A stretch of DNA of 64,000 nucleotides from Paramacrobiotus metropolitanus (lineage: Eukaryota; Tardigrada; Eutardigrada; Parachela; Macrobiotidae), in contig NW_026570319.1 in the NCBI RefSeq assembly GCF_019649055.1, positions 124,001 through 188,000 of the forward strand, read 5' to 3'. Made by a program: the position numbers and the translations under genes. Under the pieces are notes generated by a model. The model was not told where the DNA came from and did no database searches. It saw nothing but the letters and a program-made list of their open reading frames with translations. Every line of letters starts with the position of its first letter. The stretch's first letter is position 1. Below, piece after piece: positions 512 through 48,773 of this stretch.

Positions 512-788
512 TGATGATAAGTGATCATTCTGGCGCCATTGGGCGCCACCCCTGATCCACTGCCCCCCAGAAGCAGTCACCCCCAACTGCCCCTGGAATT
601 AAATAATAAGTTAAAATAAAATAATAAATTATTATTTACAAAATTAAAATAAAACGTCTAAACAAATTAATATTTGAAATATTAATAAGGCCGGCAACCA
701 ACCACCCATGGGCCAAAGTGACGTAGGTCGCTACCTGCGAAGCAGGCGTCAGCCAGCCCGCGGGTGGTCAGGCTGTGCGGTACATATA
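512..788. repeat. Left terminal inverted repeat of the Polinton
   Basis: This stretch matches the reverse complement of 48501-48773. The outer 90 bases or so differ at about one position, whereas the inner part is only roughly three-quarters identical and contains small length differences. The outer part includes two GGCGCC motifs. The inner part contains a short stem, GCGAAGCAGG-like, also seen on the right. Confidence 0.93.
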
Positions 789-1408
789 GCGGTCATAAGT
801 ACTGTACTGTACTTAGTTGTCTGATCTCTGCAGCCTCAAAGAAGTGGGACGCAGTACGTACTGGCTACTCTCGCTGCTGTGCGCTGCATACGTCTACTTA
901 TTCTCTGCTGCTTGTACACGCAGGCTTATGGAAGAAAGAAAGAAAGATTGCAAGCCGTGTGCAAAGTCACAGCTGTATTGCTGGCCGCTGCTTATTTATT
1001 CAGTGTGCTCATTTTCATGTCTTCAGTGGTAGACTGATAAAAAAATACTGCATGTGGAGGAAAAAATGGCCATCTAGCTCAAGTTCTCATGGCTCTTATC
1101 AGCGTAATGAAGCGTAAACAGTGTCTTACAGCAGAGAGAATTTTAGCTGTAATGTCATCATAGTCTTATCTCCTGGTAATTTTTTCTCTTTCGAAAACCG
1201 TCGGCCCAGAGAATGAGAGGAAAAATGAGGTAAGTCGCGATGTTGAAAACTAACTCAACCATCAGTTGATTATTTGCGCATTCAATTGAGTCGTTTGCAT
1301 TTGGAATGATGTTTTGCCAGGCTAGAATACTTGTTAACAGCTCTTATGTGCCATAACTATAATAACTGTATTCATTCTAATTGACCTGTGTGTTTACCGT
1401 GCATAACA
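789..1408. other. Subterminal region, no gene seen
   Basis: About 620 bases between the left TIR and the first gene. Two overlapping open frames exist, but they lack recognisable domains and look like chance. The promoter of the following glycoprotein gene must lie here, but I see no clear TATA box close to its start. Confidence 0.4.
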
Positions 1409-4271
1409 ATGGCAGTGGTTTTTAACCTTGTTATTGCCGGGGCTGTAATGGGTGTAATTACTGTTTGCAGCGTTGCTTACGGACAGTACTATCCCATCGT
1501 CGCTACCAACACCGCCGCCGCCGCCGCTTGTCCATACTTCTGCACTTGTAAGCCTACAATCTGGCAGTGCTCAAGCAGCAGCTCGATGACCTGGCCGTTG
1601 GATAATCAGCCTCATGTAATTGTGAGAGGTGTGAAGATGTTGGACATGACAGGATCGGATGTGAATGTTCTTCCAAATTGGCGGCCTACCCATAATTTCC
1701 CGGATTTGCAACTAATCTTCCTGGTCAACACAATTTTTGACGGTTATCAATGTCGTGAATTGGAGTGCCTGGAGAAACTGGGTCTGAAGATCATCGCTCC
1801 CCGATGCGGAAAAGGTTAATTACCAATAAAAATTTTTTGTAAATAGTTTTCTTGACTCAGAATCGTTTCCCATCGAAATAAGTTTCACGCAGAAAATGTA
1901 TATCCATCCGTAGACAAACGTAACGGCTGCGCGTATGCCCCGTGCTGTCCGTGGTCCAGCCGCCCTACACCAACCGGGTTTCCAACACCCTGGCCTTTGC
2001 CATATCCGCCCAAAGTCTTCACTACCACCCATGCTGGTAAGTAAAGATTCAATCAAACATTATTTTCGATAAAAGGTTCGGATAGTTCTTGTTGTATGTA
2101 TGTAGCTGCCGCTATAACTACAACAACGGCCGGGGCGGTGGCGCCTGCGGCAAGCACAAAAATTGTGCAAGCGACGATTACATCACCTGCCCCTTTATTA
2201 ATTACGGTTAGGCAAGAGAGCAAAAGCAGTAGCAGCAGCAGTAGCAGCACCAGCAGCAGCAGCACCACCACCACGACAGAATCGGCAATTACGTCGAGTG
2301 ATGATAGCGCATACGTTGTTTCTCCTGTCTTGACCGATGCTGCTACGGCCCTGATAGATCCCACCACCATAAAAATTTCGAATTTATCGTCAACTTTATC
2401 TATGCTGTTGTCTCCACGTGCAGACATTCGTTTTGAAATAATTAATATCCACCCTTCCTCCGTCCCATTGTCCACGGAAATAGAAAATGAAATGGACACC
2501 AGCAGCATCAGCACTAGCGCGCCTGTTGCTACCACATATCAGGTGATAAACAGTTTCCCCGACGACAGCACCACGGTTCATACCCAAGTTACTGAAACCT
2601 TTATGGATGAAGGGGATAGTAGCGGGGGAGTTGGTGGCGCTGATCGGAAGGATTATGGCAGCGATCGTTCATCTGCCCCCCCGTTTTCCTCGGAAAACAA
2701 TATATCTTCAACGAGAAGCTACATACCCGATATTTTCACCACCGCTACCGCTGCTGTATTTGACCACGAGTTATCAGCGGCCATCACCACCACCACCACC
2801 ACCATCAGCACCAATTCCGTCTCTGTTATCAAATACGTTGCTGAGTCGTCGTCGTCGTCATCGACGACGACACCCGCGGCACCCGCGTCGACATTGGCGA
2901 CGGTGAACCAAACGGGAGACAATTCAAGCGTAGCAGATGTATTAATTTTGATCAGTATTGACAGCAGCGATGTAAACATATCCGGAACAGATAACAACAT
3001 GTCTAACCACTCTTACCTTCTTGAGGAGGAGGTCGTTCACCCGACTCTGCAGCTACAGCCATGTCAACCATGTCCACCGTGCTTTTTAGGTAGTAGCAGT
3101 GGCAACGACAACGATGACGACGACAACAACTACAACAACAACAAAGCCAGCCACAGCAGCAGCAGCAGCAGTGCGCCACTTTTGGATACTAGCGGAATAA
3201 TCGGGATCGCTGTGGCAATTGTCCTGCTCGTCCTGGCTATCCTGGGATGTGCGGCATCACGCTACAATTTATTTCAGCGCTGCATGGCACGGCTGCACGC
3301 ACACAGGACTGTCGATCTTTTTGCGGTTCGAATTCCCAGAACTCCATCCGCTCCGCCACATCCCTTTGGTGGCCCTGGCAACGGCCGCCAACCGCCGCGC
3401 TCATCGCGCCCATCAACATTCTTGGGATTCCATAACTCTAACGCTAATCTAAGAGGTCCCTGGCCGCCAGGATCCGCTGCAACAACAGCTCCGCCTCATC
3501 ATCCACCTCGTCCAAATGACGGTAAGTATGCGTGCATGTGGCACGCCAGCCGTGCTTTTGTGTTGCGTGTCTTTTTAGTTGATAATCATAAACAGCGCTT
3601 ACAGACGTTACCGGGTTTGACGGCATTAACACCGCTGACCCTAACCAGGAGTGGGAAAATGTGAATTTGCGACTCGACAACAGTATTAATCGTCTAGGCG
3701 AAAGAGTTAGTGTCATGCGGGCAGCTTTGTCTCGCGGAGAACAACAGCAGCCGCCGCCACAACTACCGCACCAGCAGCCGGGGAATTTTTCCCTGGAAAG
3801 CGTTTCTGGAAGCAACCCACCATCAGATTCCTCTTATCACAGCGCCATCGACCCGGAGCGATACAACAACACAGGTATCACCACAGTGTTGCTTGATTAA
3901 TTGTGTTAAACAGTTGTGTGATTTGTGTGGTAATGATATCTGTAGACCGGGAAGCTGTTAACGATAGTATGGCCCATTTCGTGGAGAATATGGATGAACG
4001 GACCAGAAGACTGTCTGCTGTGTGGAGCCGAAGCGTGACGGACCCAGCCTTTCCCGCCCATATGGCCGCCTTCTCGACCAGTATTCTGTATGATACTGTT
4101 GCAAGTGGACCGGAAGGAGAGCGTCAGATGGCTGATGGAATTCGAGCGTGGCGCGAAATGGACTTGGAAGTTCGGGCACAGGGTGGTCCAAGCGATGAAT
4201 TTGAAGCGCAGCGTGAAGAATTCAAACGTCGCCGCGAGCGTTTCAAGCGACTTCGGCGTCAGACACAGTAA
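1409..4271 (+). CDS. Spliced mucin-like type I membrane glycoprotein (Polinton cargo)
   Basis: The gene looks split into about five exons: roughly 1409-1815, 1907-2036, 2106-3520, 3605-3875 and 3946-4271. The intron borders are GT-AG, and reading phase is kept at the junctions checked. The start ATG at 1409 has a good context (AACAATGG). It encodes a signal peptide, then a Cys-rich domain (CPYFCTC near its start, ending in a CREL...C...RC pattern) that resembles an LRR N-terminal cap with one repeat. Next comes a very long Ser/Thr-rich region with poly-Ser and poly-Thr tracts, probably heavily O-glycosylated. A single membrane helix follows near 3200-3265 (IIGIAVAIVLLVLAILGCAA), then a Pro-rich and finally a highly charged cytoplasmic tail. 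I do not recognise the family. It could be a captured host surface protein or an attachment protein. Introns are unusual for Polinton core genes and favour host origin. Confidence 0.62.
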
Positions 4272-4684
4272 TTCGATCATCGGTTGCGTTTCCTTGATTG
4301 ATACATTGTATGTATATATCTATACCCACACAATTCTGTATTTTAATACCCAGAACTAAGGTTTTGAAATTCGTTACGCAATTGCTTCTTAGTTGATCTT
4401 TTGTTATATGGCTGCATAATGTTGGAGCTTTTTTGTTTCGACAATTCCTGTTATTTCCTATGCTGGATCACTTACGTTTACATTATGTTCCCGGGATGGC
4501 AAATTTGTACAGTCACTTTTTTTATTTCTTGGATGTTTCATTGGTTGAACAACAAAACATTTCCTTCGTTGTTAACAAAAGGCGGCTTATCAACTAAACT
4601 TCCACGCATATGCCCAGTTTGAATTCGTTAACAGATTCGAATCATCGTTGTCGCAACACGGCCGTTCCGTAAGTCAACCTCGTT
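4272..4684. other. Intergenic, nothing recognised
   Basis: AT-rich sequence after the glycoprotein stop. It probably holds the 3' end of that transcript and of the convergent minus-strand unit. No supported gene. Confidence 0.4.
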
Positions 4685-5070
4685 TCACACACGCTTGCAA
4701 ACAAACGTATTAGCCTGACATGCTAAGCAAATCATGCATAATTTCCCATTTTTTCGTACAATGACAGTCGAGCAGCTTCTGCAATGCTGGCACTGAACAA
4801 ATTGATTGAAGTAGTTCTTTATAACCTGGAAGATATGCCGAAGATTGAAGTGGCGGTAAAGTTCCAGGTAGTTGTATTTCTGGTAAACATCATGAGAAAA
4901 TCCTCGTGGCAGATCCACCTCTGTTCCGGTGCGTTTAATGGCTGTTGTTCGCAAAGCGTTTTGAAAATAGGTGTCCAGAGGAATGAGGCTTTATTCCATG
5001 AGGTTTTGGAATTGGTAAAAGTTTACTACGCGTGTGATGTTAATCATCGTGTAGCGGTAGCGTAGAATGG
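4685..5070 (-). CDS. Cys-rich zinc-ribbon-like protein, unknown
   Basis: The minus-strand frame ends in a cluster of cysteines (CQHCRSC, then CMICLAC, then a last Cys) spaced like a zinc-binding module. The part before it is rich in Tyr, Phe and basic residues (for example FSHDVYQKYNYLELYRHF). It lies downstream of the dsRBD unit on the same strand and could belong to the same transcript. I do not recognise a family. The gene may be incomplete. Confidence 0.3.
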
Positions 5071-5083: not shown

Positions 5084-5422
5084 CTATATAAAAACAGAAC
5101 GCCATAAGTAACTGAAAAATTTGATATTGAGGATGTCGATAAGGCTTACCAGGATTATGGAGCACGTCTTGGTGCACAGCTGCAGCTCGTTCCGTATCTG
5201 GCCGGTGTCGAGATATCCAGTGTACTTTTCGCTGCTCCCTGCATCGGGGTGCTTTGGCGGAGTGAAATAGCTGCCGTCATTGTTGTTGTTGTCGGAAGAT
5301 GGTTCATTAGTATCCGAAGGTGAAGGGGGTGAATTATATGGCGAACGATATCGGTCAATCATACTGGGTCGGAAGCTAAATCTTTGCCGCCCGTTTGTCC
5401 TACTGTTATAACCACTGCTCAT
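5084..5422 (-). CDS. Small Ser/Asn/Pro-rich protein of unknown function
   Basis: A 112-residue frame whose ATG overlaps the stop codon of the dsRBD gene by four bases (ATGA). The N-terminal half is low complexity, rich in Ser, Pro, Asn and Arg (PPSPSDTNEPSSDNNNNDG). The C-terminal part is hydrophobic (IILVSLIDILNIKFFSYLW) and could be a membrane anchor. The tight overlap suggests it is read from the same message as the dsRBD protein, by reinitiation or by splicing. No family recognised. Confidence 0.4.
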   Translation of the reverse strand: MSSGYNSRTNGRQRFSFRPSMIDRYRSPYNSPPSPSDTNEPSSDNNNNDGSYFTPPKHPDAGSSEKYTGYLDTGQIRNELQLCTKTCSIILVSLIDILNIKFFSYLWRSVFI

Positions 5423-6150
5423 GGTGATGCCGGCGCCGTCGTCGTCGTCGGTGTCGTTGTCGATGTCGTCGCTGCCTTGGAAACAGAGGCGATGCGGGGT
5501 GGAGAATCCAAGATTTCTAATAAAAGTCGAATATAATGTACCAGTAGTTTCCGAGCAAGTAGCCTAGCAGCATCCGCTTTTGCCAGGTGTGTTGTTGGTC
5601 CGCTCCCTATTATAAAGATATCTTCGTTGGCAATTGCTGCCTGATAATTCCAGTTGTTCGCGTCGATGGACGGAAGTCGGCGGTATTCCAAATCAAAACC
5701 GAGTATGTTTGCTAGGCTTTCCGCGAGTGCCTGATAAGGCGGTTGTTTTCTCGGGGCGAGAGAGAGGGATGGATCTGGCGTAGGCGCTGATTTACTGGTA
5801 GTAGTTGTGATGGTAGTGGTGTTAGTGGATGTGGATCCTGATTGTTGCTGCCTTCTTTCGCTTTCCAACACTTCCAAGAGTTTGGTATGGTAATTCCGCA
5901 ATAAAATAGCAAGTAATTTTTTAGCCGCGTCCTGTTTGGCTGTCGCTGTTGACTTTCCAACACCTATTGCAAAAATGTGTTCAGCCAAAATGCCGGCTTG
6001 GTGTTTGCAGCAAAACGGTTCGTTAACTTTCTTAGGAACACTCTTGTAGTCAATTTTAAAAGATAAAAGTTTCCCGATAGAACTGACAATAGTTGTAAAG
6101 AAGCGGCGCACCATTCCGAAAAATCCGCAAAACTGCACTGACTGCAGCAT
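5419..6150 (-). CDS. Protein with two double-stranded RNA-binding domains, probable RNAi or dsRNA-sensing suppressor
   Basis: The 243-residue product has two dsRBD-like regions. The first, about residues 30-90, ends with the typical basic helix pattern GVGKSTATAKQDAAKKLLAIL-like (F.IGVGKS..TAKQDAAK). The second, about 135-200, has GSGPTTHLAKADAARLLA. A Thr/Ser-rich linker joins them and another closes the C terminus. Family knowledge: dsRBD proteins bind dsRNA without sequence preference. Cellular members (TRBP, Loquacious, R2D2) partner Dicer, and viral members such as vaccinia E3 hide dsRNA. In a mobile virus-like element, suppression of RNA interference is the natural inference. A TATA-like run lies about 25-40 bases upstream. 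The frame looks whole. Confidence 0.75.
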   Translation of the reverse strand: MLQSVQFCGFFGMVRRFFTTIVSSIGKLLSFKIDYKSVPKKVNEPFCCKHQAGILAEHIFAIGVGKSTATAKQDAAKKLLAILLRNYHTKLLEVLESERRQQQSGSTSTNTTTITTTTSKSAPTPDPSLSLAPRKQPPYQALAESLANILGFDLEYRRLPSIDANNWNYQAAIANEDIFIIGSGPTTHLAKADAARLLARKLLVHYIRLLLEILDSPPRIASVSKAATTSTTTPTTTTAPASP

Positions 6151-6173
6151 CGAATTACGCCGGGTGATAGCTA

Positions 6174-6190
6174 TTATATATTATACGGCT
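6174..6190 (-). promoter_or_regulatory. TATA-like run upstream of the dsRBD gene
   Basis: Read on the minus strand, the sequence is TATAATATATAAT, 25-40 bases before the first ATG of the dsRBD gene. Its position suits a core promoter with a very short leader, or a start at a later ATG. Confidence 0.4.
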
Positions 6191-6394: not shown

Positions 6395-6577
6395 CTGTGC
6401 ACAAAGACAAAGAATGACGTGTGAATAACAACTTGGCTTTTCGAGATTTCTGACAACCTTCTGCTCGTAAGCGGATGCGAAATCGAATTATATCCCTGAT
6501 CATAAATTGTTGTGTAATCAGGAAAGGCCCCCCTCCCCGCATGACTATAGATTATTTGCTGGCTGTGGAGCTGATTA

Positions 6578-7783
6578 TTGTTTTTGATACGTGGAATTAT
6601 TCAGAGAGGCTCTGCTGCTACCGCTTCCGCTTCCGCTGTTGCTAAGAAACACAAAACCCGGCAAAAAGGTAAGAAAGCTGCAATGGCGCGAAAAAAGTTA
6701 TTACCAGCAACCGCCACTGAAAGTCGGCGAAAAGCTTCCTTTCTTAAATCGCTCTATACTGATATTACGTCACCGGGGTATTTGGGTGGAACGATGACTC
6801 TATACCGGCTTGCTAAAGAGGCAGAGAAAGCTAAGCACTTGACGGTAACCCTACAGGACGTCAAGGATTTTCTTTCTGAGCAAAAGACTCATACGTTGCA
6901 CAGGCCTACCCGAATTAAATTTAAGAAATTGAAAAATTTTTGCGTTGGCGTGGATAACGTTTGGCATGGTGACCTGGTGGAGCTGCAGAAAGTTAAAAAA
7001 TTTAATGAAAAGTTCCGTTACATTCTAACGACAGTAGACTGCGTCAGTCGTTTTGCTACATCGTACCCGCTGGTCAACAAATCGGGTGAGACTGTTTCGA
7101 AAGCGCTGGATATAATTTTTCAAAAGCGGCGGCCCGTTGTTTTTGGTGAGAATGAATAACGAGACTGAACAGCACACGCTATCCTAAATATAAAGAAAGC
7201 TTTTGTAAATTTAACTGTTTTAGTTACTGATGCGGGAAAAGAGTTCATCAATGAAAAAGCAAAATCCGTATACGACAAACACGGCATACGCCACCAAATA
7301 TCGTCTTCAAGATTTAAAGCCGCGCTAGCGGAGCGTTTCAATCGAACTCTTAAAACGACATTATTCCGTCATTTTACGTTCACGAAGAGTTCAAATTGGT
7401 TTTCAGCGTTGCAAAATATTATTCAAAAATATAATGGAAGCGTACATAGTGCTGTGAAAATGAAGCCGGGAGAAATCACGGTCAGCAATCAATCGCAGTT
7501 ATTTATACTGGGCCAGGAAAAGCGGTTTATTAAGTTGCAGAAGGCAGCGTTTAAAGTTGGTGACAGAGTCCGGATTGCACTTAAGAAATCAACATTCAGC
7601 AAGGGATACACTCAAACGTTCTCCGATGAAATTTTTCAAATTTCCGAAATTTTGTTTGGGCCGGTGATAACGTATCGTCTGCAGACGCTCGATCGCGTAC
7701 CGAAAACTCTCTTGGAAGGCAATCGGCCACTGCAGTTTTATAAGGAAGATATTTCCAGAGTTGGGTCAGGAAGAATTAAATGA
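6578..7783 (+). CDS. Polinton integrase (retroviral-type rve fold), interrupted
   Basis: Family: DDE integrase of Polintons, which joins the element ends to target DNA and creates the 6-bp duplication. The N-terminal part is basic and poorly conserved. The core shows VWHGDLVEL and YILTTVDCVSRFA (first catalytic Asp region), then VTDAGKEF (second Asp) and AERFNRTLK with the catalytic Glu. The C-terminal part carries a motif typical of Polinton integrases, FKVGDRVRIALKKSTFSKGY followed by FSDEIFQISEI. The part is broken. Confidence 0.85.
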
Positions 7784-7859
7784 AATTCTGAAAATGTATG
7801 ATCAGTCAGTTGTGAACCTTTCATATTTATAAGATAAACCTGTCATTTTGTAGGAAACC

Positions 7860-8753
7860 ATGATGGAGGGAGGATTTTATACCGTACTGCATAGCGGAGC
7901 TTCCGTGGCTTATGGCTCACTGACATGCGCAACACCGCCACAATTTTCCAATAAACAACAACTACCGATTTTATCCTACTACGAACAGCAAGTGCCTTGG
8001 GAGGTTGCCCTGGTTAGAGCGTTCACTTCAGCAGAGCTCAGCACCATCCCACCTGAGCATCGGCAGCTGACAGTCTGCGTAAACAGTGCTGACAGCCAAC
8101 TTTATTTAGATGCCTACCTTGCGGAGGCCGAATTCGACAAATCGCCGCGTGACTTCGTTGCTGCCGTCTCAAAGGCAGTCCAGATGATGGTCACCAATAT
8201 GGCTGGAGTAATTGCGCCTTTAATTTTGCTGCAAGAAGGAAAGTTGCACTGGCTGAGTCAGAACGGGCAGGTGCAAATTGTCAATAGAGGTAACCTGCTG
8301 TCGGTGGTACTGGGTCTGCTCTACGATGACGATGCCGGCGTAATGCGTCAAGAAGTGGCGGCAAGCGCATATTTTCACGATCAAAACTTCCAAAAATATG
8401 GAGACACTCGGCTCATTCGAAATCGTCTGCCGGTGGACACGCAGCGGGGGCGCAAGCAGGCCATTATCTGCATGAATCAAATAGTATCTTTTGCCTTCGG
8501 AAATCGGACGGAAAATATTCTCGCGGTAGCCAGTGTCGATGATTTGAAGAAAGGTTATGAACCAAAAAGTCGCATGTATGTCCCCGTCAAAAACTGGTTC
8601 TACAAGTCCAATCCCACTGTTACCATCCAATCAGACTGGAAAATGCCTTGGAATGAAAATGCTCTAGGAGAAACCACTCTGACGCTCCATTATCGAAAAT
8701 GCCAATCCAATAATGGGAGAGCGGAAAAATCGGAGACTTCTTTTCGTGAGTGA
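7860..8753 (+). CDS. Polinton structural-type protein with WEVAL motif
   Basis: A 297-residue frame follows the integrase directly. The N terminus reads FYTVLHSGAS, then PQFSNKQQLPILSYYEQQVPWEVALV-like text with the conserved core WEVAL. This pattern (FY.TL.S..S ... F.N ... WEVAL) is known to me from uncharacterised Polinton proteins encoded next to the capsid genes in many animals. A role in the particle (minor capsid or penton-like) is an inference from position. The C-terminal two-thirds has no motif I know. The frame looks whole over the stretch seen. Confidence 0.6.
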   Translation: MMEGGFYTVLHSGASVAYGSLTCATPPQFSNKQQLPILSYYEQQVPWEVALVRAFTSAELSTIPPEHRQLTVCVNSADSQLYLDAYLAEAEFDKSPRDFVAAVSKAVQMMVTNMAGVIAPLILLQEGKLHWLSQNGQVQIVNRGNLLSVVLGLLYDDDAGVMRQEVAASAYFHDQNFQKYGDTRLIRNRLPVDTQRGRKQAIICMNQIVSFAFGNRTENILAVASVDDLKKGYEPKSRMYVPVKNWFYKSNPTVTIQSDWKMPWNENALGETTLTLHYRKCQSNNGRAEKSETSFRE

Positions 8754-9243: not shown

Positions 9244-9425
9244 AAAAACCAGTATACAATCGAGAAGTTTCCAGACGAGCTTCAGCTGTTTGATCCACCC
9301 GTATCACAATCTTCAGTAGAATCGTATCATTATACGGATGTCATGCCACTGAATCAAATTGTAAACAACACTGACGTTATTGAATTCTCATTCCTGCAAC
9401 TGAATATTACTTAGACCTGTCAGAT

Positions 9426-10902
9426 GTGCTGCTGAAAATGAAATGCCAGATTTTGGATCGTGATCCTACCAAAGTTCTTGGAGTGATCAAGGCTCAGCAG
9501 CCTATACGAGCTGTAGTTGTACCTGCACAGCCTGCTCCAGTCGTCCAGCCAGATTCTTCTGCTGACGCTGGCGCAGAAGCTTCTAGTGCATCTAATGCCA
9601 TAGTCTCACAGCACCCACCACCACCGCCACCGCAGCCGCCGCCACCGCCGCCGCCGCCACCGCCGCCGCCGGCGCCCCGGCCAAATCAACAACAACAACA
9701 GCAAGGCTTGATGACAAGCAATAGCAACGCGGCGGGGCAAAGTTACATTGACAATCCTTTAGCCGACCCATCTATTGCCCGTTTGGTAGGGGAATTAGAT
9801 TTCGCCGACAGAGGTCATTATACCAACGTGTTAAACACTCAGGGTGTGCGTGATGCGGCTCCAGTTAATTTACTATTTTACATGATGTTTGAGCGTGTGG
9901 AAATCGAAATAAATGGGACGCCTTTGTTGTCAACTACAATAATTATGGCTACAAAGGCTATATGCATACGCTGCTAAACTATTCTCGAGGAGTGAAAAAG
10001 CATCTGCTCCGACCTATAATGTGGTTCAGAGATAAGTTAAGCCGAATTCAGCCACAAAACACCATGGATAGTGTTGACTTAACGAACCCTGAATTAAATC
10101 AAGGCCTCTTGGCGCGCTACGATTTGACAAAAGAAGGAAAGGTATTCGAAATGGTGGGGAAAATAATGCACGAATTGTTCTTTCCCGAACAGTACTTACT
10201 ACCGGAAGTTTCTATTCGAATTCGACTTTTCAAGCGCAATCCTTCTTTTTATCTTATGTCTGACGATATTGCTCCTAATTATTACCTTAATTTTTTGGAT
10301 ATGCGGCTGATCACTCGTTTTGTTAAATTGTCACAAAAAACGCAGGACCAAATGCAAAAGCGGCTATTGTCACAGCCGGCGATTTATAAAATGTACGCAG
10401 CTAGCGATGTCCGCAGTCGGGCATTAATCCCTGGTCAGCGGCAGTATACGATCGACAACTTTTTTGGTTCCGAGAAAATACCAAATAGAATTGTTTTGCT
10501 ATGGTCACTCACGACGCCTATCTAGGAAACTACCGCAAAAATCCAATAAATTTCCAGCACTTCAACCTTGAGGAAATAACGCTAATAGTCGATAATCAGA
10601 TTCTATCGTATAAGCTCGATTTTAAAACGGGCACTATGCCATGCTTTACATTGCGTTGGCATGTCAACTCGGCAATAGAGATTATGCCTGCTCCACCGAC
10701 ACATCGTATGCCGACATTCGCTACGGAACGGTACAAATGATTGTTTTAATTAACGCTCTATCGTTAGAATTTTCTTATCGTTATGTAATTGATTTGTGTT
10801 TTGTGTTTTTCTCGCAGAGCATCTTCCTTTTGATTTGACGCCCAATCATGATATCGATGATATTCCGGTCGAAAGGAGACAGCTCGCCCGATTAGAGCCT
10901 TA
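9426..10902 (+). CDS. Polinton major capsid protein (double jelly-roll type), interrupted
   Basis: This region matches the protein family often listed as F54H12.2-like, which is the Polinton major capsid protein. The N-terminal part is low complexity, with a long proline run and a glutamine run. Recognisable pieces follow in order: a VEIEINGTPL segment, YMHTLLNYSRGVKKHLL, a long mid part with MHELFFPEQYLLPEVSIRIRLFKR, the FFGSEKIPNRIVL block, then NPINFQHFNLEEITLIVDNQ and a C-terminal PFDLTPNHD. The order matches the family (C-terminal motif FDLTPD). Capsid subunits of this fold form the icosahedral shell. The part is broken at a few places. Confidence 0.8.
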
Positions 10903-11224: not shown

Positions 11225-11945
11225 TTACGTGTGATAGTTATCGAAAAATTCATGCAAAAGTTTACGGGACAGAGAGCAGTTTGACAGCATCAAAGGTTTT
11301 ATATACGAAACGCTTTTTACAAAAGTAGGATCGTTCAACAGTTGTTTATAAGCTTGATAAACACGACCGAGATCGTCAACAATAACCTGTTCGGGGTGCG
11401 GTGTCCCATCCGCTCGCTTAATCATGCGCCGAATAGCTTCCATAGGCTTCACATCCATAAAAAAAGGTTAAATCCGGAATAATAAAGGACGCTGAAGTGG
11501 CTTCCCTTCGCTGGTTTCAATGCTCTTCATCCAGTCCATATCATGTCCACGGGCACTGCCGTAGCCAAATCGGATAGGATATAGCGGTCCACAACAATAT
11601 TTCCGTCGGCTAAATTACTGCGAATGTCATTAATGAGTATCTGGCGTCTCGCGGAAAGGATAAGATAGGTAGCGCGGGTGTGAACAAGGTCACGGTTAGA
11701 TAAGGCAAGAACAGAGGCTCGGAATAAGTCAGGCAATGCTGGCTGGGTGAGGCAGTTCGACATGGAAAGGTCATTGTGTAAGGAAACATTATACCCCGTA
11801 TTGGCAAGCGCATCAGCAAGTATGACAGATCCATTGGTTTTCTGCGGTGTTAATTCCTTCGAATACAATTAAAAACGGCTTCGGTTTTGTCTGTTTCTGG
11901 TTGCACTGCTGCTGCTGCTGCTGATGCAACATATCCATGATCGTA
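11225..11945 (-). CDS. Thymidylate kinase-like protein, interrupted
   Basis: dTMP kinase phosphorylates dTMP to dTDP for DNA synthesis. On the minus strand the N-terminal P-loop region begins FLIVFEGIN (family: FEG.D..GK). A middle block follows with ALSNRDLVHTRATYLILSARRQ and DGNIVVDRYILSDLA, matching the family's Arg-rich segment and DRY signature. The C-terminal block PEQVIVDDLGRVYQAYKQLL resembles the family's closing helix. Together with the RNR small subunit next door it suggests that the element boosted dNTP supply. Such genes are typical of large DNA viruses and unusual in Polintons. The copy is broken. Confidence 0.6.
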
Positions 11946-11991
11946 ATGTGCTGCAAAATGAAATGAAACACTATGTAAGCTGCTGTTACAC

Positions 11992-12001
11992 GGATATATA
12001 G
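11992..12001 (-). promoter_or_regulatory. TATA-like box upstream of the thymidylate kinase
   Basis: Minus-strand CCTATATATCC lies about 50 bases before the P-loop region of the thymidylate kinase gene. Confidence 0.35.
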
Positions 12002-12093
12002 GCACAGTACTGAAAATGCTTCAGGAAGCGAAGCGAGAACGAGCTGTCTGTAGTGAGAATGAAAGAAACCTTACTTTGCTCAGTCATTCATCT

Positions 12094-12723: not shown

Positions 12724-12754
<31 letters not shown>

Positions 12755-13585: not shown

Positions 13586-13653
13586 AGAGAGGAAGCAGAT
13601 GGGCTAGAAAGTATAGCAGGGAACCCCCGGTGCGGCTGCCAGAACAGATGGGG

Positions 13654-13660: not shown

Positions 13661-13726
13661 TCAACTTACGCGGTTAACTCCCGCTAAATATTGGTATTAT
13701 TACTATAGACTGACTGCAAGGACAAA

Positions 13727-27960: not shown

Positions 27961-27987
27961 AACTGCCTGCCCCCCAATTGGGCGCTT

Positions 27988-31004: not shown

Positions 31005-31007
31005 TGG

Positions 31008-37074: not shown

Positions 37075-37082
37075 TATAAAAG
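37075..37082 (+). promoter_or_regulatory. TATA box (TATAAAAG) for BIR protein 2
   Basis: GCGTATAAAAGCAAAAC lies 69 bases before the ATG at 37144. It is followed by a TTTCAG initiator-like motif. Confidence 0.6.
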
Positions 37083-37143
37083 CAAAACCGTAACTATTTC
37101 AGCTAGCTACTCGATCAAGTTGTTCAGCGGCAAATTTCCAAAA

Positions 37144-37783
37144 ATGTCCGATTTTAGTCCGTTTATTCAGCAGGATACAGAGCTTGGTCTGAAAATTGTT
37201 TGGCCCGGGAATTACGATGAAGTAGCTATTAATCAGCTAAGGGCAAATGGCTTTACCCCTGTTAATCTTCTCGATTCCTACTTATGCGCTTATTGTGGAC
37301 GGATAGACGTTGGATTAACTACGCAAGCCAATCCAATCATTTCTCATATTCAGAAATATTCTGATTGCGAAAAACTCCGTGAAATGTGTATGGATGATGC
37401 GGATGATGATGAGCGCCCTATTAAGCTCAAGTTACCGGAGTTTCCAGCTTTTCAGAACCTGGACGATCGCCTGAAAAGCTATGCCCATTGGCCCGCGAAA
37501 ATTGCGAAGTCTCCCTATGAACTTGCACAAGCAGGGTTCCACCACGATGGTTAAGTGCTTCTATTGTGGACTTATGGTCAGTGGGTGGATTAGCTCGGAT
37601 GTTCCGCTGCTGGAGCATCTGCGCTGGGCCCCCAGTTGTCTCTACGTTCTCCTTAAGCTTACGGATCGTCGCATGCCACCCATATATGCCACGTGCTGCT
37701 CACCAACAGACAGCGAACCATCATCATCGACAGCTATAAGCCCCAGATCGCCACCCACAGCCTTCTCTGACCCGAAAAACTGA
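37144..37783 (+). CDS. BIR-domain (IAP-like) protein 2, interrupted
   Basis: ATG at 37144 (MSDFSPFIQQD). The first BIR-like unit has NQLRANGFTPV, CAYCG and H...SDC. The second is closer to the consensus: RLKSYAHWPAKIAKSPYELAQAGFHH, then CFYCG, W and LEHLRWAPSC. The zinc ligands C-C-H-C of that unit are visible. A Ser/Pro-rich tail follows and no RING is seen. Viral IAPs block caspases, so this is probably an anti-apoptotic factor. The copy has about one break. Confidence 0.75.
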
Positions 37784-38204: not shown

Positions 38205-41200
38205 CTAAAACAGCTGAAGAAATTGTCCCGGACGATATTCCTTGCAGTTGGTTTTCTTAGGAATTACGGCGTAAAAGTGGCGCTGGATCTTGACGTTCAT
38301 GATGCGCAAAATCGGAAGTGATTTATCCACGACACCATCTTTGTTCGGGAAACAGGGGCGAAAATCGAATGCTACCGATCCGTTTTTCGTGGGAAATAGG
38401 AGAGCTTTCCTTTTCGTCTGCAAGGAATATTTTTGCTATTTTTACATTTGACAAAAATAGAAAACCAATACGAAAATTGCTTACTGGGCAGTCCAGTGGC
38501 AGAGATCCAGGATCAATGAAAGCACTGTAGCCATCATAGCTGTAAATCGCTTGTCCGATGAAAAGAGCTATTCCGCCGCCATGTCGCTCCATACCATATC
38601 GATCTGCGTTCACTGAGGCCGCGGAAGACTCTTTCTTAGAGAGGCAGGCGATTTTAAGGAGTTCGGGGAAGGTACGCGGCTTGGATTTCGGATGCGAATT
38701 CTCATACAGCTGCTCGAATGCCTGACCATAATGGAGCATTCCAAAGACGGCAGCCAGCCGCATCGCAAGGTAGTGCTCGTCACTTCCCGTCTTTGCCAGT
38801 GAGATGGCTCAAAAAAACAGTTGCCATCGCCAGGCACGTTGTATGCTGTGTACTCTTCACAAAACTCCACTGATTGCAGCATTTCGTAGTGCCATTTGCA
38901 GCCCACATGCCGCGAATCGACATTTTCTACCAAAATTTGGCGTGAGGCAGCCTGGGACGTCAAGAAGTCCTTTAGTTGTTCCGCGATATTTCCATATTGC
39001 TCTTTAATGAGCTACAAAAACGTAGGGAAAAAATGAAAAATCACGCTCATTGCTAACCCACATATACGCACACATGCGACACAGACACAAACACACACAC
39101 AAACACAGGGTTTAGTTGTTATCCTTACAGTAAGGACAGCAAGGTGGAACTGTTCAGCCGCAAGCAGTGTGGCGTCGACACAACATCTGTCGACCAATTC
39201 CAACACATCCACAATAACGTTCCGAGTGAGCGATAATGGGGAAAGAAGGGCAGAAGTCAGCTGCAATTTGCAAGATGCCGCATATTTCTAAAGAACAAAA
39301 CAGAGAAATTCTGATGATTCTGTGCAAATATCTCAGACGGATTTGCCGGCAAAGCAGTGCTTTTTACCTCCTGGTCAACAAGCGCGCTCATCAAATGGTT
39401 GAAAGCGCCGCGACGGTGATCGGCAGAGGCGGTGCCTGCCAAGAGCGGCAAATGAACCTCGTCCGGATACAATGTGCATAGCTTGCTGAGAAGATGCTGA
39501 TTAATATCGACTTCGATTGTGAAACTCGGCTTCTTGACTTCGCTCAGAATCTCGTTCCCGGATTTGGAGGGCGACGACAGTGAATCACAATCATCAATGG
39601 GGATGATATTCTGCAAGCATTTTGTGTGTACAGGCTACAAACGTAGCAGTGAATCCTAGAATCATACCTCTTCAAGGACCATTTCAGGACCTTCCTTCGG
39701 CTCTACGTCGATGACTACCGCAGGAACAACGGGCAAAAGATCGCGAACGTCTACTAGCGCTTCCATGCTTCCACTGCTTTGTACGACTGGCCCCAAGGGT
39801 GTTTCGGCGATTAAGCCTGCAGCGCCGTCATCAACCACCAAGTAGCCGCTAGCGCCACACTCGTAAATGCTGGAATAAGACTTCAAATCGGCTTTCACGG
39901 GCTCGAGGGCATCAAAACTCGACGAAACATCAAGGAGCTTCTGGCGGTGCTTGTACAAATCAAGCTTCTTTAGCTCGTTCCCAATTTGTTGTAAAGTCTG
40001 GGGTTTCTCCGCCAGTAGCTGCCGGTGTGCTGCATTTCGGTCCGTGCTTTGGGGGTGTGGATCGACAGTTTCTACCGCCTGTTTTTTCGGACCACTTGGC
40101 TGCTGCAAACGATTGAGCCATTAAAACTGAAACGTGAAAAACTTAAACGAGCATGTTTTTCACATACTTCGGTTGCGTCTTCAGCATCATTTTTGGCGTT
40201 CACTGCCAGCGAAAAACCAAAGTGAGGGGGATTGGGTTCAGAGCCAGAGCCGCGACCGCTATCCTGCAGAGACTGCGCTTCCGCATCGGGCTTCACGGAA
40301 TTCGGAAGCCATTGTGACGTGCTGGCAACTTCCATTTCGTCATTGGGAGGAATACTGTGAGTAGGGGATTGTTCTTCTTCCACAGCATCCAATGAGGTTG
40401 ATGACGGCGACGGTGTCGCAGTGCCCGGTTCCTGTCCGGCAGACGCGGTAGGACACTGTTCTGCTGACACAACCACCGAATCGCTGCTGCCTCCATCCTC
40501 GGACAACGACTATAAAGGCACGCACATTATTAACAACGGGAAGAAAATTTACGAGCTTGGTACTATGGATACAGTTCCGGCAACGCACCTTGATTGTCTT
40601 TCTACGTTTGGCTGATGGCTCCTCATCGCCGGTGGAAGGATGATGCGCTTCTTCCTGCTTGTGGTCACCATTGTGCTCATGCTCCCCGTCGTCTTCAGTG
40701 CTCTTAATAGCACTCACATCCGCCCCGAAGTGCTCGTCCAGTGTGCGGCAGCGTTTTCCTGAGCTTGCCGGCAGCGGTGTGGAGTGGCGCATATCACCGG
40801 ACGATGACGTAGTGGAGGTAGTGACGGGTAGAATAACAGGTGGCTGTTTAGAAGCTGCTGCCCTGCTATACGCTGTCCGCGTTGACCGAGTCGCACCTCT
40901 CGAAAGCTTCACAGTGGACGGACGTTTCTCTTCCGGCTCTGGCAGCGCCCGTTTTGTCGTTGGCCAGGGGACCTTGCGCAATTTTTCCCACCGCTTTTTC
41001 TGCATGCAAGGAATAGATCAGTCAAAAATGTTGCAAAAGAGAATCAATCGCGTTTTCAAATATCTTACCACTACATCCGGCTTGCAGGCCTGAATGATGC
41101 TCAGGCTCCCATCCAGAATCCGATTCAATGCGAAATCGACCATGGGCCAAGGATCATCTTTGCGTAATTGGCGCAGGTCGTGCAGCTTTCGAGGGGTTAG

Positions 41201-43939
41201 AAGAACACAGAAGAGGCTGCCCAGTTTGTTTTCACGCCGGGCCAGGTTATCGACAGCCGGCTTTGCCCTTCGCTCCACTAGATCCCAGAGTTGATCGAAT
41301 TTCGACTGCAGCGCGCGCGGATAGCAGGCAATTTTGAGAAGCCAGCCTATCGCTTCGGACTGATCTTTCGTCAGAGCCTGATGGTCATCGCAAATTCCAG
41401 GCATTGCGGGCTCAAGATTTACAAAAGCGTTGGATAATGCTTAATAAACAACAGCTTAGCTGACGCGAGCGGCTTGCTTTGTTGAGTAGTTTGAACTGGA
41501 GAGAAATGAAAGCGGTGGTCAGGATTCGTAATGGGAACGGTGTCCGGTAGATCTACGGTATCATCCACGGCCTGGTCATCACTGAACGGAACAGGAACGT
41601 TATCTGGAATCCCAAGCTCTTGTGCATGCTGTCGTGCAACTACTTCGACACATCTCCTGGCTGTACTGAAAAGCTGCTTGCCCGTGTACTGCAGGGCGAC
41701 CTGCGCGTTGACTTCCTGGGCTCGACAACACAAAAACTTCTGCTCTTCTGCCGTGGGATTCAGGTACAGACAAACCTGCACAACAAAAACAAAGAATACA
41801 AATGTGAATTTTTGAATAAGGCATTGCGAGGACTGATGAACACGCACGTCCAGTTCTTCCCATCCCATCATTTCCGCCGCGGCGCACCGCTGTGCACCTG
41901 TAAGAGTAATCCTGTTAAATACTTTTTCTACATGATGCGCCTAGCATAGTTCGAGAATGCATACCGTCGTAGATGGAAATCTTGATTTTGCCATTATTGA
42001 CCAGCTTTTCCACGTCTTCCCATGTACCATCCGGTTTATTGTAAAACACTCCCGTAACTGTCCAGCCAACTGTGTCGGGAGTTTCGTCTGTTCGATGGTT
42101 ACGTAAATGGTGGCGTAGATCATTGGCATAGTTTAAAGAGACTGGCCGGACATCCGGGTGCGGGACCTTGCTGCCCCAGACCAGGCAACTAAGAATAAAT
42201 TTTCGCCTAACCAGGAACCGCGTTGTCAGAGCCGGTGGTTCAAAAGAAGTGGGCTTTTCTGGCAACAAGATATCGTCCGGCTTTAGGCGCTCCTGAGCTG
42301 CATATGCCCGACCGGAATAGTGGTACCATTCCACTGACTCCGGGAGCGGAAGATTAGAAGTCAGGTCAAGCTGGGGATTATTTGTTGCCTTGGCAAGCTG
42401 GTCTCGGGCGTTTAACCAAGTTTCCATCTGAAAAACTTCCATTCTGCACATTCCGCGGGAGGTAGCCTTTGGATCTGTATTGTTGGCAATATCGTCAGGG
42501 CATTGACGATAGAGATCCGTACCGATAACTACATCTCTGTAGTTATGGATATCCGCAAAGTTTCCTGCAATGGCTTCATTACGTCCAATTTGACCGCCTT
42601 GATGGATCACCCCGCAGCCGACAAGAACGAGATCTCCCGGTCCCTGCTCGATGTACCATGCATGACCTCCTTGCCGCAAGAAGTCTCTCCAGTCGGCCAG
42701 GATGAGGAGTTTGTGAAGATGGTTCACGCCGATATCGTCACACGTTGCGGTGTCTGGCGCGATAACTTGAGCGTACTTGTCTATTAAAAATATTAAAAAC
42801 AAACAAACAGATGACACCTAAGGACGTTCTCATATGGGAGCCACACCCGTTGCAATTATTCTATCGCTTTCTTACCTGCAAATATTTTCTTGGCCAGTGG
42901 AAAGTGCTCAACCGGAATTCCCATCCATGACTTAATGACGCTTTCTAGTGTGAACAGGAAGTTGAAAGACGCGAGCATCCCATCTTCACAGTGAGAACCG
43001 AACCCGGTAAGTCCGGCTGATACGAGCAGCTGATTTTTGGTAATGCCGGGCCGAGGACCGCGCTTGAACATCCGGTCAAGCTCTTTAAGCACACAGGGCA
43101 CTTCGAAATCGCACAACTACAAAAAAAAAGCAACAATGATTCCCCTACGTTTACTTAATTCCCCTACGAAGATGACACTTAGCAAAAAGGACGCATGCTT
43201 TAATTATGCTTACTTCTGGAACAATCTTCACTTCGTCTACAAAGGCATAATAGCCGACGTCTCGGGATGCTGCTTGTGAATGGCGAAGTGCGGCAAAGAA
43301 TCTCACGCCGGCCTCAGCATCGTGCTGCCCGGGATTTCCCTTCAGGACATCACTGGCATCTAGCTGGCGTAAAATGTTGTTCTCTGATTTCCAGAGCGCA
43401 CGTTTGGCACATTCATCCCAAGATAACCGTTCATCAAGGGGACAGTACTGCTTGCCAGCATTTTGAATAACGACTAAGCCGTTAGGATTGGCCGTGAAGA
43501 ACTGTTTGGAATACGTTAGCTGTCCGTTCCTTTCAAACTCTTTGAACGCGGGATGTTCCTGCATATCATTTCGCGATATGCACAGATGTTTGTTACCGGT
43601 CACCTGAAGATGTTCAGATGGATGTTTTAAGAAATAATTATCGTGGAAGTTTTACTAGCACAAAGGTTATGGGATAGGCGTTCAGCAGGCAGTTTATAGA
43701 CAGACACACACCTTCATAAACAAACTGCGTGGGAATTGGTATTGACCGGGGTTTTCTTTCATTTGAAGATATTCACGCTTAAACAGATCGTAAATCTGCG
43801 GTCCCACATTGTTCCGATCGAATTTACATTCCACCTCGCGCGCTTTGTGCAGCTGACCAGGAAATTCAACGTCAAGGTTGGCAATATCGCTGTTGGATAA
43901 GCAGCCCATGGGCACTGTTGTTGCAGCGGGGAACGACAT
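38205..43939 (-). CDS. Intron-rich JmjC demethylase-like plus OTU protease-like gene (Polinton cargo)
   Basis: On the minus strand about 13 coding blocks of 50-820 bases are separated by short GT-AG introns of about 60-110 bases, from an ATG at 43939 to a stop at 38205. The first two blocks are unassigned. The next two match JmjC dioxygenases: KSWMGIPVEHF preceded by GSHCEDGMLASFNFL (iron ligands H and E/D), then EQGPGDLVLVGCGVIHQGGQIGRNEAIAGNFAD with the distal His. The middle blocks are helical, then charged and Ser/Pro-rich, with KRRK nuclear-signal-like text near 40640. The last blocks carry an OTU cysteine-protease pattern: YNVPGDGNCFF (catalytic Cys) and QRHFYAVIP (catalytic His). JmjC enzymes remove histone methyl marks and OTU proteases cut ubiquitin chains. 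One gene is the simplest reading, but two adjacent genes are possible. There is about one break. Confidence 0.65.
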
Positions 43940-44559
43940 TGTTGAGGAATTACTGGGGAATACATGAGCGTGAGCGTTAATTCTAAATGTTACAAGAGTA
44001 TAATTATGCTGGTTTTTTAATTGGCTACACGATGGATACAGGGCAGTGTGTCTTTAAACATGCTGTTCCTAATATTATTAACTGCAGAAATTTACCTAAT
44101 CCGTACATATATGTTTGACAACTGCCACAGGTTGGTATAGGTTAGAGTTATTGACACTCGTGTTTTGCTGATAGACTTCCAATTCCATTCCACTTCCTTA
44201 CCATCATCACACATTCTTGTTTTGAACAAAGAATTACATACAGCCCAGTATTAAAAACAAAACAATCAAAAAACTAATAACTGTTATTAGAAATCTATAC
44301 CAATCAGCCATGAACAAGATACACATCATCAACGTTAGCATGGAAAAGAATCAGGAAACAAAGGTTTTAACACAAATCCAAATCTTCATTCCACTCTCCG
44401 CTGGTCCATCCTTCACCATCAGATCTACAAAAATGCCGTGATAGTTAGAAAATAACTCAACAGACTGCTGCTATGTGGCAAACGATGCAGCGGAAAAAGA
44501 TTACTGCACCTAAATAATAATATTCTACTGTTAATATTATCATTTCTTGTCTCACCTTA
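43940..44559. other. Intergenic, nothing recognised
   Basis: AT-rich sequence between the JmjC/OTU start and the SGNH/coiled-coil 3' end. It should contain the promoter of the former. I see no clean TATA box. Confidence 0.35.
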
Positions 44560-45940
44560 CTACTGCTGCTGCTTCTTCTCGTTGACCTTCTTTTTCTTGC
44601 GCCGATCATTGCGGAGACCTGTGCCAATGTTACTCCCGTTCTTGGCCACGGTCTGCCGCTCTTTCCGCTGCTTCTCGGCACGGTGGGCACGGACGGCAGC
44701 TTTGTGCTTCTCCTCGGATTCCTTCCGCTCTTTGGCGGCGCGCTCATCAGCATCCTTCCGCGCCTCAGCCGCTCGCTCATCGGCCGCTTTCTTCTCCCGC
44801 CGTGCTCGCTCATCCGCATCCCTCTGCTCCTGCGCTTCCCGCTCTTCCTTTTCCTTTTTTGCCCGGGCAGCTCGCTCATCTGCCGCCTTCTGCTCCCCCT
44901 CGACCCGCTCCGCCACTTGGTGCTTCTCCGCTGCCTCACGCTGCGCCCGTTTTCTCGCCTGCAGTTCGGCTGTACGCTCTGCCACAGACAAACAATTAGC
45001 ATTAAAAACTAAGAGAACATAAATTTGACACAGAACCGAATCTTTAATTCACTGCACTTAGCATCATACTTTGGGCGACGCGCTCAATGGCTCTATACAT
45101 GGCAATGTACAGCCGATCGCCCATGGCGGGAGCAATATGCACTTTATCTGTGTGCAGGAACTTGTCCTTATGGATGGCGACATTCCCAAGCTCGAAGGCA
45201 GGCATGTTGATGAAATGCCAGTTGTTCCGGGCATTTTCGCCCTCCACGCAAAACTTCCGCAGGCTCTCGTTGATATAGCGGATGGCGATATTGCAGTGGG
45301 GTCGGTTGATCTCGGTCTCCGGCACTTGCATCACAAAAATTGGGCTATAATAATGCTGCAGGGCGTTTTTAACAGCATTTAATTGGGTGATTATGTCGGA
45401 TGCCGGCTTGTGGTGATGGGTAGTACTTAAGCGCTTCCCGTACCAGAAATTCTTCACATCGTTAGTGCCGGCAAGGAGAATGAGCTTCTTCCGACGGTCG
45501 GCAGGAGGCAGCGCAGTCCCGTAGTGCTCGCGGGCCAGCTGGATCATGTTCCACAGGACTTGGTTGAAGGTGGCCCCGGCCTCCACGTGGAATAGGGCAT
45601 CGCGCTTCGCAATGGTTGGGTAGCGGCGGTATACTACGGTGGTCGAATGGCGCCAGCTCTTCCCGGACTTGATCCAGCTGTCCGTGACAAGGAGCGTACG
45701 GCGGCCCTGGGAATCTGTTCCGACAACGACCTTCACCTGTCCATATTCGCCCACAACGTCAGTACTGTTGAGGCGCTTCAGCTTCGTGAATGCTTCTTCG
45801 CTCAAGAAGCGGTATTGGGATTCGTGTTCCTCAAGAGGTGGACGCGGATGGACCAGGTAATCGCAGTTCGCGGCTTCAGCATCTGGAATTGGGATGTGTT
45901 CGTCCCCCAACGTGTCGATGGGCAACAGTTCTGACTCCAT
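44560..45940 (-). CDS. SGNH/GDSL hydrolase-like protein with coiled-coil tail (Polinton cargo)
   Basis: Minus strand. The 298-residue first part has block motifs of SGNH hydrolases: VTDSWIKSG (candidate catalytic Ser in a D-S context), ILLAGTNDVKNF (block III, GxND) and FLHTDKVHIAP (block V, D..H). These enzymes act as esterases or lipases. The second part (44560-44991) is an extreme Ala/Glu/Arg/Lys coiled coil built on a repeated ADERAA unit. A GT-AG intron between about 45053 and 44994 would join the parts in phase; otherwise they are two genes. SGNH domains are known in some transposons (for example CR1-type LINEs), but this combination is new to me. Confidence 0.6.
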
Positions 45941-46300
45941 AACGCAGCAGCTACTACCTGCAAAAAGCTTTCAAGACACGCAATATAATTAGTACGTACT
46001 ACATACGTACGTATTGTATGCAGTCTATGAAAGTACTTGATTATCATTATTATTACGAGTGAATAATATTTGTGTTAAATTAGAAATTGCTTAATTTAAA
46101 TACTAGTAGTACGTACGGATCCATCGTGTGCCATGCAGAATACCTATAGTGTACAGACAGATACTACTTACGCGTACACTTCCGGGGAGGATATGGAAGG
46201 CTACCCGTTTGTCCGTCCGTCCGTCACAGCGGCGAGTCCAGGTCGCGACGCCTGCACTACTACCACCCAACTTTATCAGTCAGGTAGCAGTCTCTGTCCG
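45941..46300. other. Upstream region of the SGNH gene
   Basis: Repeated TACGTA/GTACGT palindromes lie around 45990-46010 and 46105-46115. A probable 3' splice site lies just before the SGNH ATG, so a non-coding first exon may lie here. No gene supported. Confidence 0.3.
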
Positions 46301-46890: not shown

Positions 46891-46899
46891 CCAAATACA

Positions 46900-48460: not shown

Positions 48461-48466
48461 AGCTGT

Positions 48467-48499
48467 CTGCGCTGTATCTCTTACACAGATACAGCGCAG
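48467..48499. repeat. Perfect 13-bp stem with 7-base loop abutting the right TIR
   Basis: CTGCGCTGTATCT and its exact reverse complement are separated by seven bases, ending one base before the right TIR. Confidence 0.7.
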
Positions 48500-48500
48500 T

Positions 48501-48773
48501 TATATGTGCGGCGCAGCCTGACCACCCGCAGGCTGGCTGACACCTGCTTCGTTGGTAGCGAAGTACGTCACTTTGGCCCGTGAGTGGTTGACGGCTTTAT
48601 TAATATGTTAATTTAATATTGATTTATACAGATGTTTATTTTAACTTTGAAAATAGTATTATTTAATATTTTATTTTATTATTTAATTCCAGGGGCAGTT
48701 GGGGGTGCCTGCTTCTGGGGGGCAGTGGATCAGGGGTGGCGCCCAATGGCGCCAGAATGATCACTTATCATCA
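48501..48773. repeat. Right terminal inverted repeat of the Polinton
   Basis: Reverse complement of 512-788, with the outer 90 bases almost identical. It is followed by the CTCCTA duplication at 48774-48779. Confidence 0.93.

Follow-up and report, generated by a model that had tools for sequence, protein, structure and literature searches.

A Polinton lineage of about 34 kb with large-virus-like cargo in the tardigrade Paramacrobiotus metropolitanus

A 64,000-nt stretch of the genome of the tardigrade Paramacrobiotus metropolitanus (the window; C99:124001-188000 of the 169.8-Mb assembly) carries, at positions 512-48773, what we read as one copy of a Polinton of about 34 kb, an endogenous DNA virus of the Maverick/adintovirus type. 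We place the probability of this reading, including the roles that best explain its genes, at roughly 0.87. The element belongs to a new Polinton lineage that appears to have converged on large-virus cargo. The original prediction, made from the letters of the window before any database search, had claimed one large Polinton that carries virus-like genes, and that claim is supported by the paired ends of the element, by its capsid protein and DNA polymerase, and by the order of its cargo genes across the lineage.

Ends, insertion sites and copies

The span from 512 to 48773 is confirmed as a single insertion. The two arms of its terminal inverted repeat (TIR) are identical at 244 of 282 aligned columns (E = 2e-84), the outermost ~100 nt being almost perfect, and both flanks carry a perfect 6-bp target-site duplication (TSD), CTCCTA, which bears out the earlier statement that repeats and duplication prove one element. 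In a genome search with the outer 24 nt of the TIR, four further places carry them exactly, as inverted pairs with a spacing of some 34 kb, and three unpaired matches with one or two mismatches lie on C55, C10 and C95. Because the tips recur as inverted pairs and the reversed control pattern gives zero matches in the genome, the TIR match is not a product of chance. The left TIR has eight matches in the genome, belonging to four elements: the window copy, C7 (34.5 kb), C57 (34.6 kb) and C13 (34.1 kb); C21 is a fifth copy by its paired tips, 34.1 kb apart. The search for copies with the same tips, as proposed in the original prediction, therefore yields four others, and the three that were read hold largely the same genes. 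C7, C57 and C13, read at both ends, each have a perfect 6-bp TSD of their own, one of the three sequences GGTATC, TACGTT and CCTGGC, so that the duplication typical of Polintons is present in four copies as four distinct sequences. Allelic duplicates are ruled out for the four copies read at both ends, whose TSDs differ, and contamination is ruled out because NCBI names PolB relatives as P. metropolitanus proteins.

The element itself measures about 34.7 kb, because a 13.6-kb long terminal repeat (LTR) retrotransposon sits inside the 48-kb span; the earlier size of about 35 kb without the LTR element holds, and the figure of 48 kb overstates the Polinton by a later retrotransposon. The LTRs (17410-18012 and 30404-31004) are direct repeats of 99.2% identity, with one substitution and three gaps opened, and the interior has matches to RT/RNase H plus weak gag-like ones. 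The insertion site is empty in three other copies, compared with which the window is without 25 bp of target and without a duplication. By these sequence features the retrotransposon is a young and later addition. It lies inside the PolB frame and therefore the window copy cannot make PolB. The same LTR family is also present on C85, at a spacing of 13.0 kb. Its Cys-rich open reading frames (ORFs) at 19924-21398 and 21483-22553 have no significant Pfam match, and an env-like gene might be among them. In the three LTR-free copies, lengths of 34.1-34.6 kb exceed the 15-25 kb that is typical, though not strictly defining, of Polintons.

Capsid protein and DNA polymerase

The major capsid protein (MCP) is homologous over almost its full length to proteins P0003 and P0004 (hhalign probability 100), and this sequence homology supports a double jelly-roll MCP of the Polinton kind. 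A fold search of the PDB with a P0003 model, a low-confidence support, ranks double-jelly-roll capsids first, and C-terminal motifs of the P0003 type occur in Polinton MCPs. In a further fold search with this model the top match is R9XLG5 (30% identity), a protein linked to the Maverick in a Cotesia bracovirus genome. A single-sequence search with the MCP matched one protein and a profile search three. A profile search of the PDB with the MCP alignment had a best E of 0.53, and scans of IMG/VR with MCP and PolB profiles, limited by their patterns, returned no relative. A PHROGs search with six proteins gave matches for PolB alone. At one position in the MCP gene we predict a GT...AG intron, found in 9 of the 13 loci with both anchor motifs (14 examined) and absent in the other four.

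The polymerase appears to be of the protein-primed type expected of a Polinton, as judged by its DNA_pol_B_2 domain (3.3e-12 and 5.7e-8 for the pieces at 32355-33164 and 33164-34093), by its matches to animal PolBs of the same type and by its position in a tree. The closest PolBs outside the host are 42-46% identical. In the tree (59 rows, quick method, with no adenovirus or large-virus rows), the 12 rows of the lineage described below group together with full support; P0008-P0012 join them (support 100, stem 0.9), and three ordinary PolBs of the same host group separately. Of the phylogenies that had been proposed as a check, the one of PolB returns a clade within Polinton/adintovirus diversity, apart from the host's ordinary Polintons. 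The 498-aa N-terminal ORF of the C7 PolB, where we sought the OTU-like domain of Adintoviridae, has no Pfam match.

The ratio of nonsynonymous to synonymous divergence (dN/dS) indicates that purifying selection acts on MCP and PolB in most pairs of loci. Where dS is finite, the ratio is 0.039-0.331 in seven of eight MCP pairs and 0.045-0.124 in all six PolB pairs; two further pairs are saturated for each gene.

Cargo genes, their lineage and the right arm

The genes and other features of the window copy are collected in Table 1. A retroviral-type integrase, as in Polintons, is recognized by its rve matches (3.5e-7 for the first piece, 30.9 bits against a cut-off of 32.6; rve_3 and rve at 0.009 and 0.03 for the second) and by its D and E motifs. 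The packaging ATPase matches Pox_A32 in the C7 copy (1.6e-5, 24.9 bits, cut-off 22.8), with Walker A and B motifs present. Seven accessory genes have domain matches in the window or in another copy: a dsRBD protein, thymidylate kinase (TMPK), the small subunit of ribonucleotide reductase (RNR2), an IAP with two BIR domains, and OTU, JmjC and SGNH proteins. The original prediction of at least eight accessory genes holds for these seven, and eight is reached only by adding the BIR-like and mucin-like proteins recognized by eye. Of the two neighboring ORFs that by eye make a candidate surface glycoprotein, ORF 1385-1816 is Cys-rich with a hydrophobic start, and ORF 2045-3661 is Ser/Thr-rich with one hydrophobic stretch.

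Several cargo domains are best seen outside the window copy. SGNH and JmjC reach Pfam values of 9.9e-10 and 1e-9 in C21. The OTU match, not significant in the window's own subfamily (0.16 in C57), is 7e-5 in the C7 homologue, and C57 and C7 share the motif GDGNCFFRA. The C7 TMPK matches the NCBIfam dTMP kinase at 2.8e-20, scoring 72.9 bits where the cut-off is 83.25. Among solved structures, the C7 JmjC protein, which has a WHxED motif, comes closest to KDM4 demethylases (3.3e-7), and RNR2 to eukaryotic-type R2 proteins, with conserved R2 motifs in the C7 copy.

Table 1. Features of the Polinton copy in the window, with positions in the window
Feature	Positions	Strand	Basis
Left target-site duplication, CTCCTA	506..511		
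Left terminal inverted repeat, tip TGATGATAAGTGATC	512..788	+	
Two ORFs, candidate surface glycoprotein	1385..3661	+	By eye; no significant Pfam match
dsRNA-binding-domain protein, candidate RNAi suppressor	5422..6180	-	Pfam dsrm 4.3e-6
Retroviral-type integrase, two open pieces (6575-7156, 7169-7780)	6575..7780	+	Pfam rve
Candidate minor capsid protein	7854..8750	+	By position only, between integrase and MCP
Major capsid protein (open pieces 9384-9974 and 9893-10522)	9384..10522	+	
Thymidylate kinase, three pieces in window copy	11228..12070	-	Pfam 0.0029 here, 1.3e-18 in C7
Gln/Pro-rich protein	12097..13603	-	No Pfam match
Ribonucleotide reductase small subunit, three overlapping frames here	13709..14860	+	Pfam Ribonuc_red_sm 1.5e-17, 1.1e-21, 5.6e-24
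BIR-like zinc-finger protein	14936..15766	-	Motif by eye; Pfam: weak zf-BED only
DNA polymerase B, N-terminal part, severed by LTR insertion	16083..17409	+	
Nested LTR retrotransposon, foreign to the Polinton	17410..31004	-	Paired LTRs, empty site in other copies
DNA polymerase B, remainder (pieces 31281-31640, 32355-33164, 33164-34093)	31004..34093	+	
A32-like packaging ATPase, C-terminal piece	34330..35040	+	No Pfam match for window piece
IAP-like protein, two BIR domains, two pieces here	37030..37780	+	Pfam BIR 6.1e-9; C7 7e-26
OTU-like cysteine protease, two overlapping frames here	38326..39011	-	No Pfam match in window pieces
JmjC-domain protein, C-terminal half (41918-42817) best supported	41918..44053	-	Pfam JmjC 0.0012, below cut-off
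SGNH/GDSL hydrolase	45047..45970	-	Pfam 0.0013, below cut-off
Right terminal inverted repeat	48501..48773	-	
Right target-site duplication, CTCCTA	48774..48779		

The MCP piece matches 26 places in the genome at an identity of at least 48%, and from 36 compiled rows we counted 24 capsid-bearing loci. Left out are two MCP places on C9 without partner genes, a C99 row that repeats the window as an effect of the LTR insertion, and seven PolB-anchored rows without an MCP of their own (two on C185, one each on C165 and C442, and three on C55, two of these taking in genes from the adjacent C55:838323 locus). C19 and C294, also outside the 24, have matches to RNR2, PolB, IAP, JmjC and SGNH without an MCP match. 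TMPK and PolB are present at all 24 loci, dsRBD and RNR2 at 23 each and IAP at 20; the right-arm genes OTU (10 loci), JmjC (11) and SGNH (7) have counts that are lower bounds, because the C21 JmjC and SGNH genes escaped these queries. The PolBs are 60-98% identical to that of the window, and TMPK, RNR2, IAP and OTU have open frames at other loci. Across the 24 loci the cargo genes keep a single order and orientation at similar offsets, and the core cargo is therefore ancestral to the lineage rather than nested. These data support a diverse and little-described lineage of about two dozen loci, a number that may shrink because the pairs C55/C382 and C74/C32, close in MCP (dS 0.056-0.064), could be haplotypes. 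At C55:838323-848016 the distance between MCP and PolB is just 5.4 kb and RNR2 is missing; this locus is a probable deletion derivative.

The same genome also contains ordinary Polintons, which we sampled at 70 PolB places of 29-46% identity (128 of 592 candidates scored; weaker rows and some fragments omitted). Their PolBs are related to those of the large lineage, and IAP is often common to both: a BIR/IAP match lies within 16 kb of at least 31 of the 70 places, 14 of them at 12.3-13.4 kb, so that IAP capture seems common in the host's Polintons. In contrast, the three ordinary PolBs sampled in the tree form a separate clade, and no TMPK or dsRBD match lies within 16 kb of the 70 places, where queries from the large lineage could miss distant versions. 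RNR occurs once within that distance, as a fragment. Hence IAP is shared with many ordinary Polintons, and the RNR2-TMPK-dsRBD set, save one RNR fragment, is not.

The right arm varies between copies. Block by block, C57 is 97.6-99.6% identical to the window as far as 46915; C13 reaches 97.5-99.1% as far as 45904 and then 94.8% over 46294-46915, with ~0.06 kb missing at 35209-35267 and 0.4 kb missing at 45905-46293. The subterminal stretch 46916-48398 is unmatched in both, though both of its flanks match, the right end from 48399 onward at 96.0%. C7 matches the window, minus the LTR element, from 512 to 37966, and its identity in 200-column bins drops from 92-99% to 88.5, 85.5 and 80.5% just ahead of the end of the match. 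Past that point the OTU, JmjC and SGNH genes of C7, though in the order of the window, are versions of its own, alike at the protein level only (SGNH 35%; JmjC 39% over 96 residues). The C21 right arm encodes JmjC and SGNH, with no OTU gene found, and neither blastn (1e-5) nor tblastx (1e-6) shows similarity to the arm of the window or C7, except in 42-43 nt of the tip. In the window, C7 and C21 the SGNH gene ends 2.3-2.8 kb from the tip. Consequently, there are at least three strongly diverged right-arm versions attached to near-identical or related left parts, and recombination between related elements would explain them best. We infer that the right arm, which holds the genes for OTU, JmjC and SGNH, changes fast, recombines and serves as an interface with the host.

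Elsewhere in the window, and outside the Polinton, there are a 205-nt inverted repeat of 97% identity (61612-61816 and 63460-63664), a perfect 69-nt palindrome (52216-52354) and, to the right of the element, three diverged direct repeats of ~300 nt at a spacing of ~5-6 kb (50100-50399, 55098-55397 and 60966-61265). Scans of the window for tRNAs and Rfam families gave no match.

Alternative readings, known relatives and biological meaning

The window's integrase, TMPK, RNR2, IAP and OTU frames are split and its PolB is disrupted, as would be found in a fossil family that died long ago and is losing its cargo to decay. We consider that reading improbable. The published genome is a Canu assembly with Oxford Nanopore (ONT) data (PMC11191345), and the differences between C13 and C57, 87 substitutions and 195 indel events in 33972 columns, 92 of these events falling in homopolymers of 4 or more, bear an error signature that fits such an assembly. 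Because the indel excess fits such error, the frame breaks in the window cannot be taken simply as decay. Between the window and other copies, substitutions outnumber indels (328:128, 342:148 and 347:227), and error therefore explains part of the differences, not the whole. The divergence of C13 and C57 is only 0.26% in substitutions, which means recent insertion. Of 18 TMPK loci with just 34-45% identity to the query, 15 are free of stops throughout the part that matches.

Less probable still is that the lineage is truly intermediate between Polintons and the larger DNA viruses of eukaryotes, a reading for which the set of RNR2, TMPK, IAP, JmjC and dsRBD genes would speak, since it resembles the auxiliary genes of large DNA viruses. 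The length of 34 kb also exceeds the 12.7-24.6 kb given for vertebrate Mavericks (PMC8097293). However, PolB falls inside Polinton/adintovirus diversity, with PolBs of the same kind as the nearest rows outside the lineage, though the tree alone cannot decide against an intermediate because it held no large-virus rows. The absence of TMPK and dsRBD near the ordinary PolBs checked, and the single RNR fragment there, are as expected for later gain. No RNA polymerase, late transcription factor (VLTF3), D5 helicase or mRNA capping enzyme was matched in the selected ORFs scanned, some small ORFs lying outside the scan. The original prediction of a little-described lineage between Polintons and larger viruses is thus upheld as to 'little-described' (24 loci, nearest PolBs at 42-46%) and not as to 'between'. 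Finally, the growth of an ordinary 15-20-kb Polinton through unrelated genes or elements that each nested in it separately, to which the one nested LTR retrotransposon and the variable right arm might point, is scarcely credible when dsRBD, TMPK, RNR2 and IAP stand at 23, 24, 23 and 20 of 24 loci with similar offsets and constant orientation, and when three right-arm versions keep the JmjC-SGNH order and the SGNH distance from the tip, a pattern that looks like divergence plus recombination. Separate nested insertions of cargo, which the original prediction had named as its refutation, were looked for and not found for these four genes.

Several observations weigh against reading the element as a Polinton with the stated gene roles. 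The P0003 model has a mean pLDDT (model confidence) of 43, and the TM-scores of the folds that it matches are just ~0.2, so that we used it as weak support. The minor capsid protein is assigned by position only; it has no Pfam match, and its single-sequence model was unusable (pLDDT 32). No adenovirus-type maturation protease was recognized in the selected ORFs scanned, from which small or spliced genes could escape. The cargo functions rest on domain matches, several of them weak in the window copy (JmjC 0.0012, SGNH 0.0013, OTU none). The PolB tree was made by a quick method, and a number of its branches beyond the clade discussed here are long. One MCP pair, L038/L039, has a dN/dS of 2.1 at a dS of 0.004, four pairs are saturated over both genes, and in some MCP frames part of the intron is read through as coding sequence, a possible cause of higher dN/dS.

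Compared with vertebrate Mavericks, the element is alike in its TIRs, 6-bp TSD, rve integrase, PolB, packaging ATPase and MCP, and in the gene order of integrase, (candidate) minor capsid protein and MCP. It is unlike them in its length of 34 kb, in its tips, TGATGATAAG, where AGTAGT is their commonest end motif, in its predicted GT-AG MCP intron, where their intact MCPs are reported as intronless, in its conserved RNR2, TMPK, dsRBD, IAP, OTU, JmjC and SGNH genes, and in that a protease is unrecognized (PMC8097293). With adintoviruses it shares PolB, integrase, capsid and FtsK/A32 ATPase and an association with animals; three Drosophila-associated adintoviruses have 13.3-14.6 kb and 10-12 proteins, and the passages describing them do not mention the tardigrade cargo set (PMC11071296, PMC8363768). 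The adintovirus-like insertions of Amoebidium are likewise complete, at ~30 kb, in a host genome, but their host is a protist, their VLTF3 and Dam genes are unmatched in the tardigrade ORFs scanned, and the JmjC demethylases reported there belong to co-resident giant viruses (PMC11244446). Size by itself is not unique, because these ~30-kb elements and protist relatives of 14-40 kb (PMC10120064) exist. The EMALE07 virophage of Cafeteria also carries an RNR small subunit, which is reported there as unique to one element type (PMC8547959), whereas in the tardigrade lineage 23 of 24 loci have RNR2, with TMPK as its neighbor.

The literature searched yielded little on such cargo. A search for Polintons with thymidylate kinase gave, judged from its listings, papers on other subjects, as did, by the same measure, a search for tardigrade Polintons or endogenous viral elements, with no paper on the subject. 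In the passages retrieved, histone demethylases belong to giant viruses or to a reference title, and RNR to giant viruses, phages and EMALE07 only, a prior Polinton mention being possible. The combination of features, constant across one lineage in an animal, appears to be new; the kind of element itself is known. The cargo looks convergent with that of large viruses.

Because of domain identity, we infer roles for these genes in replication, RNA interference (RNAi) suppression, anti-apoptosis and anti-silencing. The integrase would insert a linear genome that PolB, being of the protein-primed type, would copy; the RNR small subunit and TMPK could boost the supply of dNTPs (deoxynucleotides) and so allow replication in non-dividing cells. 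The dsRBD protein may block RNAi, the BIR proteins apoptosis, and the KDM4-like JmjC protein may strip silencing histone marks, while the OTU protein would edit ubiquitin. Transcription would be nuclear, because the capsid mRNA would need splicing. We give even odds to the wider proposal of a separate, recently active family of tardigrade DNA viruses, with a 34-kb backbone that would free it of the host's cell cycle, silencing and death, an exchanged right-arm cassette and spliceosomal capsid introns.

Polintons are often placed near the base of DNA virus evolution in eukaryotes. Its roughly two dozen syntenic loci stand beside ordinary Polintons in one genome, and in this way the tardigrade lineage offers a direct test of the gain of auxiliary genes and of its order.

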